Of a stretch of DNA of 64,000 bases, positions 6,687 through 57,774 are shown piece after piece. The stretch lies in NCBI RefSeq assembly GCF_023573145.1, contig NZ_CP097635.1, positions 1,612,001-1,676,000 on the forward strand, in the 5' to 3' direction. Within the stretch, counting starts at the first letter, position 1. Every line of letters starts with the position of its first letter. The translations under genes and the position numbers were made by a program. Source of the stretch: Aquincola tertiaricarbonis. GTDB lineage: Bacteria > Pseudomonadota > Gammaproteobacteria > Burkholderiales > Burkholderiaceae_C. A model generated the notes under the pieces. The model was not told the DNA's origin. It worked only from the letters and a program-made list of their open reading frames with translations, and ran no database searches.

Positions 6687-7694
6687 CTAAGCGCGCGCCT
6701 GCGTCTGGCTCGGCATTTCGCCGAAGCGGGCCTTGTAGTAGCTGGCAAAGCGCCCCGCGTGCGCAAAGCCGAAGCGCAGCGCCGTGTCGGTCACGGTGGC
6801 TTGCGGATGCAGCCGCAGGTAGCGGCGGGCGGCCTGCAGCCGGCGTTCACGCACCCAGGCCATCGGCGACAGGTCGTGCACCTGTGCGCACAGCTGGTGC
6901 AGCGTGCGCACGCTCATGTTGCCGGCGCGCGCCAGGTCTTCCAGGCTGATGGGCGCGCCAATGTGGCTGTCGATGTAGTGCATCACTGCGTCGATGCGCT
7001 GGGCCTGGCGGCTGCCGCCTGCCACCGTGCCGTGGTCCACCGGCACCGGGGCTTCCGTGGGTTGGCCGCTGCCTTGGGCGGTGCGCGCCTGCGCCGCCAC
7101 GAACATGGCCACGCTGCGCTCGAAGTGGGTGAGCCAGGCCGCGCGCATCGGCGTGTCGGAGGTCAGCGACATCGCACCCAGCAGTGCCTCGGTGTGCAGG
7201 TCCCACAGCGCGGTGTGCTCGCGCGGCAGCACATGCCCGGGCCCGATGTCCACCGGCTGCTCGGCCTGCATGCCGGTGACTTCTCGCAGCAGGTTGTGCG
7301 GTACGCGGACGATGAGCTGCGCGGTGCCCGGCTGCCAGTGCAGCCGCACGCCGCGTCGCGCCGGCAGCACCGCCGAGCGGCCTTCGGCGATGTAGAGCCG
7401 TTGGTCGTCGGTCTCGATCTCCAGCCCGCCCACCAGCGAGGTATGCACCAGGCAGAAGTCGTCGAACGGGTGCGGCGTGACCTCCACCTCGGCACCGTAC
7501 TTGAGCATGTAGACATGCAGGTGCTCGGTGCGGCCCTTGTGCATCACCGCGTCGGGGGCGCCGCGGCGCCAGCGCAGCGAGTGGTCGGCCAGCTCGCGCG
7601 CCACATGGTCGTGCACGGCCACACGCTCGTCCGACCGGAACAAGCAATGCGCCGTGAGCGGCGCGAGGGCTTTGCTTGAGAGGGTCAGTGCCAT
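6687..7694 (-). CDS. andR: AraC/XylS-family activator, AndR-like, divergent from the dioxygenase operon
   Basis: A 335-residue regulator. The N-terminal 200 residues are an AraC-binding-like domain of the type common among aromatic-catabolism activators; the C-terminal 100 residues hold two helix-turn-helix units (ISLEDLARAGNMSVRTLHQL and AHAGRFASYYKARFGEMPSQ). The start at 7694 begins the conserved part; it lacks a strong ribosome site and a start 24 codons upstream is possible. Its position, back to back with the ring-hydroxylating dioxygenase genes, matches AndR of Burkholderia anthranilate dioxygenase clusters. Target assignment is by context. Confidence 0.8.
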   Translation of the reverse strand: MALTLSSKALAPLTAHCLFRSDERVAVHDHVARELADHSLRWRRGAPDAVMHKGRTEHLHVYMLKYGAEVEVTPHPFDDFCLVHTSLVGGLEIETDDQRLYIAEGRSAVLPARRGVRLHWQPGTAQLIVRVPHNLLREVTGMQAEQPVDIGPGHVLPREHTALWDLHTEALLGAMSLTSDTPMRAAWLTHFERSVAMFVAAQARTAQGSGQPTEAPVPVDHGTVAGGSRQAQRIDAVMHYIDSHIGAPISLEDLARAGNMSVRTLHQLCAQVHDLSPMAWVRERRLQAARRYLRLHPQATVTDTALRFGFAHAGRFASYYKARFGEMPSQTQARA

Positions 7695-7834
7695 TTCTGG
7701 TGCGTGGTGGGTGGGGGGTGCGTGGGTTTCGCAAGAAGTGGACCGACTGTGCGCGAAGACTGCCAAAGCTGGATAGGTATGGCATTCCCGGGTCTGGACA
7801 CTGACAGCGTCAAGTCACGCAACAGGTGAAGCCC

Positions 7835-9112
7835 ATGGCGGACACGCCCATCCAGGAACGCGCGCCCAGCGAGCGTTCCATCTCCTTCCCGCAGGCGGAC
7901 GGGTCGTCCGTGCCTTATGCGGTGTTCAGTTCACAGGCGGTGTACGACCGCGAGCAGGAGCGCCTCTACCGCGGCCCTTACTGGAGCTTCGTGGCCCTGG
8001 CCGCCGAGCTGCCCAACGTGCACGACTTCAAGAGCACCTTCGTCGGCGACACGCCGGTGGTGGTCACGCGCACGGCCAGCGGCTTTGCCTGCTGGGTGAA
8101 CCGCTGCGCCCACCGCGGCGCGATGGTGTGCCGTGAAAAGCACGGCAACGCGGCCAGCCACACCTGCGTGTACCACCAGTGGGCCTACAACTGCGAAGGC
8201 GACCTGCAGGGCCTGCCGTTCCGCCGTGGCATCCGCACCGACAACGGCACGCTGGCCGGCATGACCAAGGCCTTCAAGCCCGAGGACCACGGCCTGCAGA
8301 AGCTGCGCGCGGTGAACTACAAGGGCCTGATCTTCGCCACCTTCAGCGACGAGGCGCCGCCGATCGAAGACTATCTGGGCCCGGAGATGAAGCCCTGGGT
8401 GGACCGCATCTTCCACAAGCCCACGGTGTACCTGGGCTGCACGCGGCAGTACAGCAAGAGCAACTGGAAGCTGTACTTCGAGAACGTGAAGGACCCCTAC
8501 CACGCCAGCTTGCTGCACCTGTTCCACACCACCTTCAACATCTTCCGCGTGGGCATGCAGGCGCGCTCACTGCCCGATGCGCAGCACGGCCTGCACAGCC
8601 TCATCACCGTGACCAAGCCGCCGGTGGAGGCGGACACCGCGGCGGCCTACAAGCAGCAGGACATCCGCTCGATGCAGGAAGGCTTCAGCCTGGAAGACGG
8701 CTACCTGCTGGGGCAGATCAAGGAGTTCGACGAGGACTGCACCAACCACATCCAGCCGATCTTTCCGCAACTGGTGATCCAGCAGATCCACAACACGCTG
8801 GTGGCCCGCCAGCTGCTGCCCAAGGGGCCCAGCAACTTCGAGCTGGTGTTCCATTTCTTCGGCTACGAGGACGACACGCCCGAGCTGCGCGAGATGCGGC
8901 TGCTGCAGGCCAACCTGGTGGGGCCGGCCGGCTACATCAGCATGGAAGACACCGAGGCCACCGAACTGGTGCAGCGTGGCACCGTGCGTGATGGCGACAA
9001 GGTCTCGTTCATGGGCATGGGGCTGGACGCACCCGACGAGACGCGCACCAACATCACCGAAAGCCTGATCCGCCGCTTCTGGGCCGGCTACCAGAAGGCC
9101 ATGGGGTACTGA
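7835..9112 (+). CDS. andAc: Ring-hydroxylating dioxygenase large subunit, anthranilate 1,2-dioxygenase type
   Basis: A 425-residue catalytic subunit. The Rieske 2Fe-2S ligands are seen as C-A-H (about residues 91-93) and C-V-Y-H (111-114); the mononuclear iron histidines lie in VKDPYHASLLH (about 223 and 228). ATG 7835 follows AGGTGA at the right distance; a GTG at 7826 is less likely. It would dioxygenate anthranilate to catechol with release of ammonia and CO2, receiving electrons from the ferredoxin and reductase encoded downstream. Gene order (large, small, ferredoxin, disulfide-reductase-type reductase, with an AraC regulator) fits andAcAdAbAa. A salicylate 5-hydroxylase is the main alternative. 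Confidence 0.8.
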   Translation: MADTPIQERAPSERSISFPQADGSSVPYAVFSSQAVYDREQERLYRGPYWSFVALAAELPNVHDFKSTFVGDTPVVVTRTASGFACWVNRCAHRGAMVCREKHGNAASHTCVYHQWAYNCEGDLQGLPFRRGIRTDNGTLAGMTKAFKPEDHGLQKLRAVNYKGLIFATFSDEAPPIEDYLGPEMKPWVDRIFHKPTVYLGCTRQYSKSNWKLYFENVKDPYHASLLHLFHTTFNIFRVGMQARSLPDAQHGLHSLITVTKPPVEADTAAAYKQQDIRSMQEGFSLEDGYLLGQIKEFDEDCTNHIQPIFPQLVIQQIHNTLVARQLLPKGPSNFELVFHFFGYEDDTPELREMRLLQANLVGPAGYISMEDTEATELVQRGTVRDGDKVSFMGMGLDAPDETRTNITESLIRRFWAGYQKAMGY

Positions 9113-50720: not shown

Positions 50721-51185
50721 TTAAAGCGTTATTTGGGAACGAGCGAACGAGTCTGCCCATTCGCCAGCACTCTCGATGCTGCGGAAGATCTTTTGCAGCG
50801 GCATTTCGATCATTGGGTTGTTTCCTGCTGGCAGCAGACGTCGCGGATCGGTTTGGAGACCGAAGCACAGCTTCCTATGGGCATACGCGTACCCGAGCTC
50901 AAAGGCTGCGCCTTCGTCGATCGCACGTCCATCTAGCACGATGATCAGAGCACAGGCGGCATCAAGGGCTCGCAAGTCGCGGTCGAATATCGACTTGTAG
51001 GCTGCATTCTCCTCCACCCCGCACGCCAGCAGATCCACGAGCTTGCCTCCGTCTCTTTGCGGCAGATAGACATCCAAGCTTGCCTCAATTCGCGTCGTCA
51101 GAGCGAGGTTGAAGTTGAGTTCAGCTTCTGAAAAGAGGGGGGCCGCGAGGTAAACAAGCGGCCGGTTGTGATCAAACCGCTCCAC
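50721..51185 (-). CDS. Nucleoside 2-deoxyribosyltransferase-like protein
   Basis: A 154-residue protein. The start LVYLAAPLFSEAELNFNLAL and the active-site segment AIDEGAAFELGYAYAHRKL (catalytic Glu near residue 96, Asp at 90) identify the nucleoside 2-deoxyribosyltransferase family, which moves deoxyribose between bases or hydrolyses nucleotide glycosidic bonds. Starts at GTG 51185, overlapping the SIR2-kinase gene by 14 bases. Last gene of the putative defence operon. It could modify, salvage or destroy nucleotides during infection. Confidence 0.85.
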   Translation of the reverse strand: MERFDHNRPLVYLAAPLFSEAELNFNLALTTRIEASLDVYLPQRDGGKLVDLLACGVEENAAYKSIFDRDLRALDAACALIIVLDGRAIDEGAAFELGYAYAHRKLCFGLQTDPRRLLPAGNNPMIEMPLQKIFRSIESAGEWADSFARSQITL

Positions 51186-52839
51186 CGCCTGCTCCGATGT
51201 AGCTCTTCAGCTTCGTAGTCAAATCCGCTGGCACATATTCGTGACGGTGGATTACCTCGGCGACTCGCTTGGTTAGCTCCGCGATACCCATAAACTGCGT
51301 GTCGATCGTGATGGTGCCCGGCATGGATTCATACAGCTCCTTCATGTCGATCTGCATTTCTTCCAACTTCTTCGCAGTATATTCTTCCCTACCGGTGGCA
51401 CGTACCCGGGCAGACAGCTCTTTGGGGTCACCGAGCAAGAGTATGACGACGCCTTCTTCGACGCCGTAGCCGCCGTGTCCGTCATCAGGGCAGAGGCGAT
51501 CCGCTAGGAATTTTGCCTTGGAGGGCCGCTCGCTCTTAGGCGTGAAGACTAGTGGATCGAGCGGTGGGCGGTCAACAACACTGATCACAGCATTCTCCTC
51601 GTGCCTCAGCGTGTCGTTCTTTTGCTCAAATTGACCAGCGATCCAATCGTCTGTGAAGGACCGCTGATCGTCCGTAAGCTTGTCCCAGGGGATACTTAGT
51701 ACCTCTGGTCGAGGTTCGAGCCACTCATCCAAAACATTCAGATTGCGAAGATGACTGGTGGTCGTACTCTTGCCAACCCCAATGGAGCCGGTCATATAGA
51801 AAGTGTACTTCAGGGGGGTGGCGCTACGTTTCGCCAAGTCCTTAAGCTTGCCGTCCGGAACTTCACTTTCATTAATTAGCTTTAGCAGCAGCCTAATTTC
51901 CGAGGACGTCAGAAAAAGGGTTATAAGATTGTAAACCTTGAAATTTGTCTCGGAAATGAGATGTCGTTCAACATCAGAAAGCGTTTCCTTATTGGGGATC
52001 CAGTGGCAATAGTAATGGAAGTTGCCGGGATTTGTCTCGGCGCCACGCATCAAGACATTTCTGAGTTCGGCTTCTAGCGAGCACCCGACTAGCAGGCAGG
52101 TTTTTCTGGCGAAGTGAGCCAAAAGAAACGACGAGTCGTGACCGCGCGCTCCAACGTACTGCTTCGAATACGAAGCCTCTGAAAAAACAAATCGGTCGAC
52201 CGTCTTTTCCATAAGGCCTGCCGGAACATATCCGTGCAGATGATAAATCACGCAGTCTTGCCGCCGAAATTGTGGCCAAGGGTCAGTGACAACCTCGAAG
52301 CCGCGGTTCCCCTTATCTTTTTCTCGTTTCCTTTCGGCGAGCGCTCGCTCGAGATAGTCGTCGAAGTTGAAATTGATAGTTAGTGCACTATTTTGGACGA
52401 GCGGGATAAGCGCTTCCATATAGGGGTGTTTGGGTAGCTCGGCAGCTATATCGATCGGCGGCGTTTTGTATAAATATTTCTGGCAAATTTTGAGCCACGC
52501 TGCCGTAGCAGTGTTCTGCTGCTCGGCGGGAGATAGATCGGCGTGCTTCCCAGAAAACGCCGCCCGAAACTTTTGGTAGAGGATTTCGGTCTGGTAGGGC
52601 GCTGCCATACCCTTGAACGCTGCGCCATTCGCTACGTCATTTCCGTCTACGTCGGGATCAGAAGCAATGTCATTGATCAATTTGCCCCACTGAGGGGCGC
52701 CGAAATCAATGCTTATTCCTGCTCCAAGGATCGTGCCGAAGCGCTGCTTGCGAACTTGCGAACGCAAATGCACGATTGCACGGGGGTACTGCCTCAGCAG
52801 ATCGCAAAAAGCCTTATCGTCTTCTTTTTCCCTGGACAT
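51172..52839 (-). CDS. SIR2-domain protein fused to a P-loop nucleoside-kinase-like domain
   Basis: A 555-residue protein. The N-terminal half is SIR2-like: TILGAGISIDFG (37-48), TINFNFDDYLE (154-164) and the catalytic-His region YHLHGY (199-204). The C-terminal part begins with Walker A GSIGVGKST (351-359) and continues VVDRPPLDPLVF and LLLGDPKELSARVRATGREE, as in deoxynucleoside/thymidylate-type kinases. SIR2 proteins in defence systems cleave NAD+. I know of no described system with this fusion and these partners. ATG 52839 has a GGGG-type site. It lies 8 bases after the DUF6884 gene stop. Confidence 0.88.
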   Translation of the reverse strand: MSREKEDDKAFCDLLRQYPRAIVHLRSQVRKQRFGTILGAGISIDFGAPQWGKLINDIASDPDVDGNDVANGAAFKGMAAPYQTEILYQKFRAAFSGKHADLSPAEQQNTATAAWLKICQKYLYKTPPIDIAAELPKHPYMEALIPLVQNSALTINFNFDDYLERALAERKREKDKGNRGFEVVTDPWPQFRRQDCVIYHLHGYVPAGLMEKTVDRFVFSEASYSKQYVGARGHDSSFLLAHFARKTCLLVGCSLEAELRNVLMRGAETNPGNFHYYCHWIPNKETLSDVERHLISETNFKVYNLITLFLTSSEIRLLLKLINESEVPDGKLKDLAKRSATPLKYTFYMTGSIGVGKSTTTSHLRNLNVLDEWLEPRPEVLSIPWDKLTDDQRSFTDDWIAGQFEQKNDTLRHEENAVISVVDRPPLDPLVFTPKSERPSKAKFLADRLCPDDGHGGYGVEEGVVILLLGDPKELSARVRATGREEYTAKKLEEMQIDMKELYESMPGTITIDTQFMGIAELTKRVAEVIHRHEYVPADLTTKLKSYIGAGGGAV

Positions 52840-52847
52840 ACTATCCC

Positions 52848-54074
52848 CTATAGCAAGTCAATTTGGCCGCTCGCGTTCTCGCGGTCTTTGATGCGCAAGC
52901 GCCATCCGCTCGGCGCCAACGACTGCTCTGTTTTGGCACGTCGTCCCTCGGCAACTTCAATGTGTTGTTCGAATACGTCTAGCGATCTTGGATCAAATGT
53001 TTCGTAGACGTGATTAACGTTCCAGAGCCCTGAGCTTGTGACAGCTCCGCGAGTGCTCCATCGGCCTAGCCAATTCCCACTTGGCAGATCCAGCGGCCCT
53101 GTTGGGCCTGCTAGGAGCGCGATGAAATTCCTTTCTAGGTAGCCGCGATCACTATCGGCCGACGAAGGGTCAGGCACCTCTAGCCATGCGACTTGCATAC
53201 CTCCAATATACTCGGAGACTGCGAGCTCAATCTCTTCTTCTGCCGAGCGAACTTCGGCCGATGCAGACTGCCCCTTGCCCCATGTCGGGAAGATCGGTTC
53301 GAGCTCCCCAAGTCGTATGAGGGATTCACCCACGTGAAGGCGAAAGATCGATCCGCGGTGATTACCGAGGCCGTCGCCTCCGCCACGGTGAGTGCGAAGG
53401 CGGTTCCAAAGGGTGGCCTTTGATCCCTGACTGACCGAATGAGTGCCTATTCGAACAACGCGGTGCTGGAATGGTGCAGTCATGCGCATCTCTCCATCTT
53501 CGAAGAAGAAGTAAATGCCACGTTTTTGTCGAACAGACGCGGTTGTCTGCTGAGAAAGTCTCCGGCTCAAGCCGGTAGTTAAAGCGGCAACTCGTTCCAG
53601 AAGCCTGTAGAAGCGATCAATGTGCGACAGGCGCGCGTGTTCGCTTTCGACTTTCTGCAGCCAAGCCACTTGGCTACCAATCCCAAGTGCCGACATCGGT
53701 GCTGCGGTTTCATGGCCTTCTGACTCAAATGCGGGAGCAAGATATGAACGATACGCAGATCCGGCTAGAAATATGACACGACTGCCGACGGGGACGCGCG
53801 CACGAAAGGCTTTGAGGACACCGGCAGCCCATGTCCGTCGCTGCGCTTCACTTTGACTTAGGAGCGACTCGTCGTAAGGGGCGATTACGTCCTTGGGGGA
53901 CAGCAGACCGTGCTTTGCGGAAAGGATAAACCATTGATCGGCACGCTTTTCGGCGTAGCTGCGTGCAGCCGAAAATAGCGGTGACCGATAGATAAATTCG
54001 GCTGTCGCCGGCTGATCACTCTTCCTGCTGGTACAGGCGACTAAACAAACCGTATTCGAGTGGGTCTTCTCCAC
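52848..54074 (-). CDS. DUF6884 domain fused to a GIY-YIG nuclease domain
   Basis: A 408-residue protein. Residues 8-140 fit DUF6884 (VCLVACTSRKSDQPATAEFI; FILSAKHGLLSPKDVIAPYD). Residues 185-340 show a GIY-YIG nuclease layout: GIYFFF (186), RVVRIGTH (205-212), LWNRLRTHRG (222-231), catalytic-type E314 in YLERNF and N334 in PSGNWLG. GTG start with AGGTGAGG upstream. It directly follows the QueC-like gene (7 bases) and may cut DNA containing, or lacking, a deazaguanine base. Confidence 0.8.
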   Translation of the reverse strand: MEKTHSNTVCLVACTSRKSDQPATAEFIYRSPLFSAARSYAEKRADQWFILSAKHGLLSPKDVIAPYDESLLSQSEAQRRTWAAGVLKAFRARVPVGSRVIFLAGSAYRSYLAPAFESEGHETAAPMSALGIGSQVAWLQKVESEHARLSHIDRFYRLLERVAALTTGLSRRLSQQTTASVRQKRGIYFFFEDGEMRMTAPFQHRVVRIGTHSVSQGSKATLWNRLRTHRGGGDGLGNHRGSIFRLHVGESLIRLGELEPIFPTWGKGQSASAEVRSAEEEIELAVSEYIGGMQVAWLEVPDPSSADSDRGYLERNFIALLAGPTGPLDLPSGNWLGRWSTRGAVTSSGLWNVNHVYETFDPRSLDVFEQHIEVAEGRRAKTEQSLAPSGWRLRIKDRENASGQIDLL

Positions 54075-54081
54075 GGATGCC

Positions 54082-54720
54082 TCACCTTAGGTCCTGCCAC
54101 GCGAACTCGTGGAGCTTGCACGCATCGCACGCGCCGCATGGTACGAATCCGGCCGCCGAAATCTTCGGGCGATAGCAGCTCCAGGTGTCATGGCGCTGCA
54201 AGCCCAGACGCTGGGCGAGCTTGGCAATCTGAGGTTTCGACTTCGCTTGCAGCGGCGCCAAGAGCTTTGGACCCTTGGGAATGGCATAAGAGAGCATGTC
54301 TCTGAAACTTGCGATGAACTCGGGGCGGCAGTCGGGATAGCCGGAAAAATCAACGGAATTGATTCCCGTCCAGACTTCGTCGGCGCCAATTCCAGCAGCT
54401 TCGGCCGAGGCCAACATGAGGAAAATCCCATTCCGGCCAGGAAGGAAGGCACTCGAAACACCCTTCTTGATTTCCGCCACCGAGCGATTTTTCGGAATCT
54501 CGCGTGCGGGCTTGCTCCAAGCGACAGACACAATCTTCCGCTCAATGCCGAAGCGAGCGCACTGGGCCGCGGCATAGTCCAGCTCGACGTGGTGATGCTG
54601 GTTGTAGCTGACGCCCAGGCTAACGACTTCGTGGCCACGAGACTGGGCAAGTAGCATGCAGACGGTGGAGTCCAACCCACCGCTATGCAGCACAACAACC
54701 TTTCGCTTTTCTTTTCCCAC
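54082..54720 (-). CDS. QueC-like 7-cyano-7-deazaguanine synthetase
   Basis: A 212-residue ATP-dependent ligase-type enzyme. The PP-loop SGGLDSTVCMLLAQ opens the protein; GINSVDFSGYPDCRPEFI and the zinc site CYRP...PCGACDACKLH are textbook QueC. The usual reaction converts 7-carboxy-7-deazaguanine to preQ0 for queuosine. Here no other queuosine genes are adjacent, and it heads a defence-like operon. QueC homologues are known in type IV CBASS and Qat defence systems. GTG 54720 has GGAG six bases upstream; a TTG at 54804 is less likely. Confidence 0.88.
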   Translation of the reverse strand: MGKEKRKVVVLHSGGLDSTVCMLLAQSRGHEVVSLGVSYNQHHHVELDYAAAQCARFGIERKIVSVAWSKPAREIPKNRSVAEIKKGVSSAFLPGRNGIFLMLASAEAAGIGADEVWTGINSVDFSGYPDCRPEFIASFRDMLSYAIPKGPKLLAPLQAKSKPQIAKLAQRLGLQRHDTWSCYRPKISAAGFVPCGACDACKLHEFAWQDLR

Positions 54721-55050
54721 TTCGCGCTCCGTTTCCGCAGATTTCCACAGGGCTGCTGTCTCACGCCTAAAGGCTCGCAGTGCGCGCCGCGAGCCCAGCT
54801 CCAAACGGGCCTAGCCTGCTGTCATCGTACAGCGCCCGCGCGCAGAGCGTCACCGAGCGAAGCCGCAGCCTAAGTGGTCGTGCCTGGCAGTTGTTCTGAG
54901 AACAGCGGACGCAGAGGTGTTACCCCTAATGTCAGGTTTCCGAGTCCGAAGCCTTTCGGCCATCGTGCTTGGCTGACCGCACCCAGTCCCATTCAGATGC
55001 CTGTTGACGACAAGGAGGTTCACACTGCCAGACCGGACGTCAACGAGCAT
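54721..55050. other. Upstream region of the QueC-led operon, left edge of the low-GC block
   Basis: About 330 bases carrying the expected promoter of the leftward operon. A palindromic TTCTGAGAA occurs at about 54893. No gene, tRNA or repeat marking an integration site was identified. Confidence 0.4.
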
Positions 55051-56543: not shown

Positions 56544-57680
56544 TCACGGCGTGCCGCCCTCGCTGTTCAAGCGCTTGTGTTCTTCGATGGCCTCGCGGTC
56601 GCGCTGCAGTTCCAGCCGCAGTTCTTCTTCGCTGGGCAGGATCAGGCGGTACTTGCTGGCGAACAGTTGCTCGCTGCCATGAAGCACCGAGTAGCGCGCC
56701 ACCGATTGGTCCTTGCTGCCGCACAGCAAGATGCCGACGGTCGGGTTGTCGCCCTCTCCCCGGCGCAGTTCGTCGTACATGCGCACGTACATGTCCATCT
56801 GCCCCACGTCCTGGTGCGTGAGCGGCCCGGTTTGCAGGTCTATCAGCACGAAGCACTTGAGCAGGTAGTTGTAGAACACCAGGTCGATGTAGAAGTCCTG
56901 GGTCTCGGTGCTGATGCGCTGCTGCCGGGCCACGAAGGCGAAGCCCTTGCCCAGCTCCATCAGGAACTGCTGCAGCTTGTCCATCAGCGCCGCTTCCAGC
57001 GTGGCTTCGAGCAAACGGCCGGCACCGGGCAAGCCGAGAAACTCCAGCATCACCGGGTCGCGCACAAAGGCGCGTGGAGAGTCTTCCAGCGCCTTGAGGT
57101 TCGCGTGTGCCTCCTCGCTGACGGCGGCCCTGTCCTGGCTCAGCAGCAGGCGTTCGTAGTACAGGCTGCCGATCTGCCGCTCCAGGGCCCGGGTGCTCCA
57201 GTTTTGGCTCGCGGCTTCGTGCACGTACCACTGCCGCGCTTCGGTACTGTCCACTCGCAACAGCAGGCGGTAGTGGGTCCAGCTCAATTCGCGACGCAGT
57301 GCGTCGCGAATTGGAAAGGCCTGGTAGAACGCCCGCATGTGGCGCAGGTTGGTGGCATCAAAGCCCCGTCCGAACTCTGCCGACAGCGCCTGGCCCAACT
57401 GGGGCAGCAAGCGCTGTCCATAGGCCGCCCGCTGCGAGCCGCCTTGCTCGAACTCCACGATGTGCCGACCGATGTGCCAGTAGGTCTGCACCTGCGCCAC
57501 ATCCACAGCCCGCAACACCTGCTGCCGCGCATCGGCGATGAGTTCGCGCAGGGTGCCCAGCAAGGGCGCTAGGCCGGCGGCCGGGGTCGCCTGTTTACCG
57601 CTCGTTGGCTTACGGCTCCTGGAGGTCATGACGGGAAGTGGCTGTCTGGGAGAGTCGTTGGCGGGCGTCGACGCGGTCAT
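56544..57680 (-). CDS. YhcG/DUF1016 PD-(D/E)XK nuclease-family protein
   Basis: A 378-residue protein. The N-terminal DUF1016 half has QVQTYWHIGRHIVEFEQGG and FDATNLRHMRAFYQAFPIRD; the C-terminal PDDEXK half has FAFVARQQRISTETQDFYID, LVFYNYLLKCFVLIDLQTG and GILLCGSKDQSVARYSV. The pattern D...(D/E)xK is visible in DFYIDLVFYN...VLIDLQTG, with Lys/Gln variation. Members are found in defence and restriction islands and are thought to be nucleases. The N-terminal 40 residues are variable, so the start is uncertain (57680 or 57629). Confidence 0.82.
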   Translation of the reverse strand: MTASTPANDSPRQPLPVMTSRSRKPTSGKQATPAAGLAPLLGTLRELIADARQQVLRAVDVAQVQTYWHIGRHIVEFEQGGSQRAAYGQRLLPQLGQALSAEFGRGFDATNLRHMRAFYQAFPIRDALRRELSWTHYRLLLRVDSTEARQWYVHEAASQNWSTRALERQIGSLYYERLLLSQDRAAVSEEAHANLKALEDSPRAFVRDPVMLEFLGLPGAGRLLEATLEAALMDKLQQFLMELGKGFAFVARQQRISTETQDFYIDLVFYNYLLKCFVLIDLQTGPLTHQDVGQMDMYVRMYDELRRGEGDNPTVGILLCGSKDQSVARYSVLHGSEQLFASKYRLILPSEEELRLELQRDREAIEEHKRLNSEGGTP

Positions 57681-57774
57681 GGCGGTCGACGGTGACGGCG
57701 GATTGTGGCCGTTGGCTTGTCGCCCAAGGTGCAGCACAAGATGCCCATCCCCCGGGAAATCCCCAATCCCACCC

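Follow-up and report, generated by a model that had tools for sequence, protein, structure and literature searches.

A four-gene operon within a 64,000-nucleotide stretch of the Aquincola tertiaricarbonis genome (contig NZ_CP097635.1, positions 1,612,001 to 1,676,000; hereafter the window) appears to be a SIR2 system with its own predicted base-making and base-moving enzymes, a set that matches no named system in PADLOC v2 or the literature searched. Its genes lie on the minus strand and encode, in order of transcription, a QueC-family protein, a DUF6884 protein, a protein that combines a SIR2-like with a P-loop kinase-like domain by fusion (SIR2-kinase), and a nucleoside 2-deoxyribosyltransferase (NDT). 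We conclude that these genes almost certainly act as one functional unit, that the set consists of two modules (SIR2-kinase with NDT; QueC with the DUF6884 protein), and that the operon likely serves defence. As a tentative account of its action, we propose a mobile abortive-infection system of two modules in which a deoxynucleoside carrying a swapped-in deazaguanine might be the trigger and NAD+ hydrolysis by SIR2 the response.

Relatives of the SIR2-kinase were recovered with DNA context at 17 loci (numbered below with the prefix L), situated on two plasmids, 12 genome contigs, two viral contigs and one further phylum genome. One of them, L008, begins inside the SIR2-kinase gene and was excluded for upstream genes, leaving 16 assessable loci. 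The original prediction, made from the sequence of the window, had taken the four genes for a single system whose members should co-occur elsewhere. All four were present in the window order at 11 of the 16 loci (L004, L005, L006, L007, L009, L010, L011, L012, L013, L015 and L016), which include Burkholderia (L004), Pseudomonas (L005), Planctomycetota (L015) and one phage contig (L016). The window copy shares 79–93% identity with the Burkholderia and Pseudomonas copies. Across 12 copies, the pairwise distances of the four genes correlated with one another at 0.83–0.96, a level reached in none of 5000 permutations for any gene pair. Part of this correlation could stem from common ancestry of the hosts; the copies nonetheless cross phyla.

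The single-system claim stands with one qualification, as the SIR2-kinase and NDT genes occur without QueC and the DUF6884 protein at four loci (L002, L003, L017 and L181). At L014 the SIR2-kinase is found alone, and NDT accompanies it at 16 of the 17 loci. Independently of the operon, DUF6884 or YaaA-like genes lie beside genes resembling the C-terminal half of the DUF6884 protein (M57B-like, after the PADLOC candidate model PDC-M57B) at L020, L030, L032, L111 and L112. The set is divided into two modules because both kinds of pair live separately. Sequences upstream of the SIR2-kinase–NDT pair vary: L002 has a QatA-like KAP NTPase there, and L181 a 577-residue protein (6706-8439). In L009 (6999-9630) and L010 (6016-8390), NDT is followed by Q_salvage and TGT genes. 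These were considered as operon members and rejected, being seen only at these two loci, whose SIR2-kinases are 62.5% identical to each other. A second Q_salvage fragment lies upstream of the operon in L009 (181-801), and the presence of Q_salvage on both sides may mark an insertion site.

A role in defence is consistent with the distribution and surroundings of these genes. Among 369 class genomes sampled, the fused DUF6884 protein was found in one, that of the window itself, with five others matching one half only, and the SIR2-kinase was found in 2 of 398 sampled phylum genomes. The operon copy of L016 adjoins a portal gene on its phage contig. Patchy distribution together with a phage-borne copy fits mobile defence. 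Type III restriction-modification genes lie beside the L012 operon and LmuB beside that of L013. Of ten operon neighbours tested, six to seven gave no PADLOC match at 1e-10; of the three to four matches, L012 gave two and L013 one. The 122 neighbour open reading frames (ORFs) of the 11 operons matched 81 PADLOC models at the same threshold. We regard the defence-island signal as moderate because each of the 25 listed PADLOC models was matched by only 2 of the 122 ORFs.

The compact layout and the low GC content that had been noted for the operon were both borne out. ORF coordinates place gaps of 7 and 8 bases between the first three genes and a 14-base overlap between the SIR2-kinase and NDT genes. 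GC content is 55.0% over 50721-54804, compared with 66.2% and 66.7% in the 5-kb flanks and 68.8% in the whole window. A clear drop relative to the flanks was likewise seen in L005, L006, L007 and L016. The host genome comprises 7.11 Mb in 4 contigs, and the operon flanks include an AraC-type regulator and a FAD-binding oxidase-like gene. When 60 family genomes were compared with the downstream flank to locate the insertion site, the flank genes themselves proved to be patchily present there. Beyond the operon, 1.8 kb from the QueC start, lies a YhcG/DUF1016 PDDEXK nuclease-like gene (window 56544-57737; PADLOC PDC-S02, 5.6e-143).

The SIR2-kinase (51172..52839, minus strand; 555 residues) matched SIR2_2 at 7.3e-13 and AAA_28 weakly, in agreement with its predicted domain composition. 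AAA_28 was detected, at E values no higher than 0.1, in each of 17 kinase parts, and among 120 listed relatives a Walker A motif was present in 118 and a DRxPxDP motif in 117. Assignment of a kinase type through solved structures was abandoned, since the matches were at the P-loop level only (best, shikimate kinase at 1.3e-3). Among SIR2 proteins of solved structure, the closest are FAM118B (E 7.8e-4) and KomC (E 0.0019), and weak PADLOC matches to ThsA (6.9e-10) cover the start of SIR2 only. Residues N158, D160 and H200 of the SIR2 site are invariant across 37 aligned sequences. H202, which precedes the glycine of the HxHG motif and which we take to be the sirtuin catalytic histidine, is present in the window protein. 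SIR2 effectors are described as frequent in anti-phage defence, and the SIR2-kinase is probably an NAD+-destroying effector.

The predicted deoxyribosyltransferase (50721..51185, minus strand; 154 residues) matched PF05014 at 2.1e-17. Y12, D70, D90, E96, N123 and M125, whose numbering and roles we presume to be those of the class II NDT site (Tyr, Asp, Asp, Glu nucleophile, Asn and Met), are invariant in 18 sequences, so that the class II set is complete. The tyrosine has been linked to 2′-deoxy specificity. The closest solved chain is 7O62 (1.3e-56), which is DpNDT of Desulfotalea psychrophila, described as a characterised NDT and studied as a biocatalyst. In a small tree, DpNDT clustered with the L017 and L181 enzymes (support 0.98; identity 55–59%), and the SIR2-linked NDTs plus DpNDT split from six other NDTs with a support of 0.77. 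The operon enzyme is thus probably a genuine deoxyribosyltransferase. A search of viral contigs for further SIR2-linked NDTs returned nothing beyond the two contigs already found. Separately, a Streptosporangium plasmid (L023, 3228-12061) carries a queD-queE-queC-NDT cluster with sugar genes, which is probably a deazapurine natural-product cluster.

QueC (54082..~54720, minus strand; ~212 residues) was recovered as predicted, with a Pfam QueC match at 8.5e-53 and a TIGR00364 score of 156.1 bits, just over the cut-off of 150.3. Its longest ORF extends to 54804; the start was placed near 54720, at a GTG with GGAG upstream, because the relatives in L004 and L005 begin near that position. Background on this and the other families was taken from the available portions of PMC13329287, PMC11701544, PMC11888242, PMC12839542, PMC6884629, PMC13279940, PMC9570332, PMC10952713, PMC11204291 and PMC13174449. 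Canonical QueC motifs, as described in PMC13329287, are SGGxDS, YxQxHxxE, VPxRN, YPDC and the zinc cysteines. The Y and D of YPDC are described as contacting the 7-deazaguanine precursor CDG. The window protein has the full set, with LPGRN in place of VPxRN and 12 residues in its zinc loop. All 12 operon QueCs retain SGGxDS, YPDC and the zinc cysteines, and with them the motifs for ATP, zinc and CDG; VPxRN is changed to LPxRN in these proteins, and their zinc loop has 12 residues rather than 8. The copies of L009, L010 and L015 lack the histidine of YxQxHxxE. The operon QueCs form a clade of their own, separate from ten phage QueCs and from the host's second QueC, which is 31% identical to the operon protein. 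Since the host genome also encodes PTPS/QueD (C2:8862), with a 255-codon radical-SAM frame directly before it, CDG is plausibly available. Whether deazaguanine is really used by the operon is, in our judgement, evenly balanced.

The DUF6884 protein (52848..54074, minus strand; 408 residues) had been labelled DUF6884-GIY-YIG, and only the first part of this label was upheld. The DUF6884 domain matched at 1.1e-43 and carries the CxxxK and LSAxxG motifs known for the family. The two halves matched the PADLOC models PDC-M57A (1.6e-35) and PDC-M57B (7.1e-75), with DpdC at 8.3e-5 and 0.017. The Pfam GIY-YIG model was matched by none of 64 aligned family members at E values up to 1, and when profiles were compared with each other, using 28 GIY-YIG domains, the probability was 1.6%. 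GIY-YIG thus remains unconfirmed as a label for the C-terminal domain, its sole backing being the motif order GIY … RIG … RLxTH … E, which we take to be that of the GIY-YIG family. The domain is conserved among relatives and has nuclease-like motifs. Two haloarchaeal plasmids (L022 and L028) carry a relative of this C-terminal domain within a few kb of genes for DUF6884 and DUF6610.

A connection between DUF6884 and 7-deazaguanine was found in viral genomes. With L029, the operon contig itself, set aside, QueC is present in 13 of 79 viral DUF6884 loci, in 11 of them within 250 bases of the match ends, and the surrounding genes include FolE, PTPS, radical-SAM and Vut_1. These neighbourhoods are phage preQ0 clusters. 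No QueC was present in a small control of 15 additional viral loci, which were retrieved through a portal protein and come from mutually related phages. The contigs that combine DUF6884 and QueC are L036, L052, L069, L070, L071, L072, L075, L081, L088, L096, L101, L107 and L108. DpdC, a hydrolase converting dPreQ0 to dADG, has been placed in DUF6884 by one paper and in PF03883 by another. The viral clusters, taken with DpdC membership, therefore tie DUF6884 to 7-deazaguanine. The closeness of DUF6884 and QueC genes on these contigs suggests that the DUF6884 proteins of phages have DNA containing 7-deazaguanine as their substrate.

Under the proposed mechanism, QueC would make a 7-deazaguanine base (preQ0 or preQ0 amide) from host CDG. 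Infection would flood the cell with 2′-deoxynucleosides, for example from degraded host DNA, and NDT would exchange their base for deazaguanine. The abnormal deoxynucleoside would then be bound or phosphorylated by the P-loop domain of the SIR2-kinase, and this would turn SIR2 on, so that NAD+ is hydrolysed and the cell stops. The DUF6884 protein, as a relative of DpdC, would either finish the base or cut DNA bearing deazaguanine. The NADase, base-synthesis and base-exchange activities are predicted from protein families. For the trigger and the signal we reason by analogy with Kongming (KomABC), which reportedly comprises the adenosine deaminase KomA, a HAM1 partner and the SIR2 NADase KomC, and reportedly signals through a base-modified deoxynucleotide. 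That a base-swapped nucleotide is the signal here is doubtful. More doubtful still is a general form of the idea, an alarm by base exchange in which a dedicated QueC would supply the base, NDT would swap it onto deoxyribose freed by infection and the NADase-fused kinase would read out the abnormal nucleotide, with the QueC-less pairs as its minimal form and DpNDT as a half-pair. The Q_salvage and TGT genes of L009 and L010 and the Streptosporangium queD-queE-queC-NDT cluster point in the same deazaguanine direction, though the cases are few.

Several observations weigh against the proposed mechanism or against mobile defence in general. The existence of SIR2-kinase–NDT pairs without QueC means that deazaguanine is not generally required by the pair, and classical NDTs are poor with 7-deazapurines. 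In 20 of 116 readable relatives, asparagine replaces H202; all of these fall within P0092-P0120, towards the remote end of the list of 120, and they include P0092, P0096-P0098 and 16 others. The contrast in GC content is not clear in L004, L009, L010 and L011, and the sparse repetition of PADLOC models among neighbour ORFs belongs on the same side.

Other readings of the operon assign QueC and the DUF6884 protein different parts. The original prediction envisaged sensing or marking of DNA followed by cutting and NAD+ depletion, which is possible. In a specific version of this scheme, the operon would sense modified phage DNA: DUF6884 would flip out and recognise dPreQ0 or dADG in it, the C-terminal domain would cut, and NDT and the SIR2-kinase would read the released deoxynucleosides. 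DpdC and YfjM, both DUF6884 members, have been proposed as base flippers, the viral QueC-DUF6884 loci show that such phages exist, and the conserved C-terminal domain with its nuclease-like motifs would be the cutter. The scheme leaves unexplained why defence would keep a complete preQ0 synthase, its nuclease fold is unconfirmed by profiles, and the SIR2-kinase and NDT exist without the DUF6884 protein; we consider it unlikely. In a second reading, QueC would activate a partner protein by attaching CDG to its N-terminus, as has been shown or proposed for QueC relatives in type IV CBASS and Qat (PMC13329287 among the sources). The CDG-binding YPDC motif is indeed kept in the operon QueC. The known acceptor, however, is an N-terminal glycine, and glycine occupies residue 2 in only 1 of 119 SIR2-kinase relatives, 1 of 120 DUF6884-protein relatives and 0 of 18 NDTs as translated, with starts that are partly uncertain. 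As the window operon also has no TGT-like Cap10, protein tagging appears quite improbable.

A Thoeris-like scheme, in which an NDT resembling a TIR NADase would make an NAD-derived signal that activates SIR2, with QueC and the DUF6884 protein as accessories, finds some support in the weak ThsA matches, in the described similarity of TIR and NDT active sites, and in the occurrence of the SIR2-kinase–NDT pair alone. It is nevertheless difficult to reconcile with the NDTs themselves, in which the deoxyribonucleoside-site residues are all invariant, including the tyrosine of 2′-deoxy specificity, and whose relative DpNDT is a characterised NDT; Pfam also reported no SLOG or Macro domain on the SIR2 protein. 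We give this scheme very little weight. Finally, the four genes might form a mobile operon for the salvage of queuosine or deoxynucleosides, with no part in defence. The Q_salvage and TGT genes are restricted to two related loci, but they, the NDT beside queD-queE-queC in the Streptosporangium biosynthetic cluster, and a QueC paralogue cluster that adjoins PfkB-NDT proteins (PMC13329287) would all agree with salvage. The patchy distribution and the phage-borne copy, in contrast, fit mobile defence. We know of no salvage role for a SIR2_2 domain, and salvage seems improbable.

We found no named system with this gene set in PADLOC v2, NCBIfam or the literature searched, which was mostly open-access; the PADLOC database dates from 2023, so that later naming is possible. 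The literature searches returned no paper for QueC with SIR2 and deoxyribosyltransferase, for SIR2 with NDT and phage defence, or for PDC-M57, and the available main text of the QueC-family survey (PMC13329287) mentions neither SIR2, GIY-YIG nor any DUF. The prediction of an undescribed set thus survives, except that both halves of the DUF6884 protein already figure in PADLOC as the candidates PDC-M57A and PDC-M57B. That candidate is a protein pair only, and the operon QueC, SIR2-kinase and NDT match no PDC-M57 model.

Likenesses to named systems extend to single components. Like Qat, the operon places a QueC-family protein in a defence-like setting, and L002 has its QatA-similar KAP NTPase beside the SIR2-kinase. 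Qat, however, has the ATPase QatA, QatB, QatD and a QatC of ~400 residues with a remodelled site; it was rejected, as QatA, QatB and QatD are absent from the four genes and the operon QueC is short, canonical in its motifs and matched by PADLOC QatC at only 0.021. Type IV CBASS (Cap9/Cap10) shares CDG-recognition residues with the operon QueC, and was set aside as no CD-NTase, TGT or Cap10 match and no N-terminal glycine acceptor were found among the four genes. The DUF6884 protein is distantly related to DpdC, yet PADLOC detected neither DpdA nor DpdB among the four genes, and Dpd, with its DpdA transglycosylase, DpdB and helicase genes, was likewise rejected. Thoeris resembles the operon in having a SIR2 effector, but TIR ThsB is missing, and the four proteins have no SLOG or Macro domain by Pfam and a kinase-like domain instead. 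Kongming is alike in its SIR2 effector, for which NADase activity is predicted in the operon, and in the signal logic proposed here. It differs in that the operon has a kinase-like domain fused to SIR2 and would obtain its base from QueC and transfer it with NDT; it was rejected as an identity for the operon, with neither an adenosine deaminase nor a HAM1 domain found among the four genes by Pfam.

If the proposed mechanism is correct, the operon would represent a third immune use of QueC enzymes, one that retains their base-making chemistry rather than turning it to protein tagging. It would also be, to our knowledge, the first use of a deoxyribosyltransferase as a signal maker, and would widen immune signalling by base-modified nucleotides beyond Kongming. 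The structurally known DpNDT (7O62) provides an entry point for its study.

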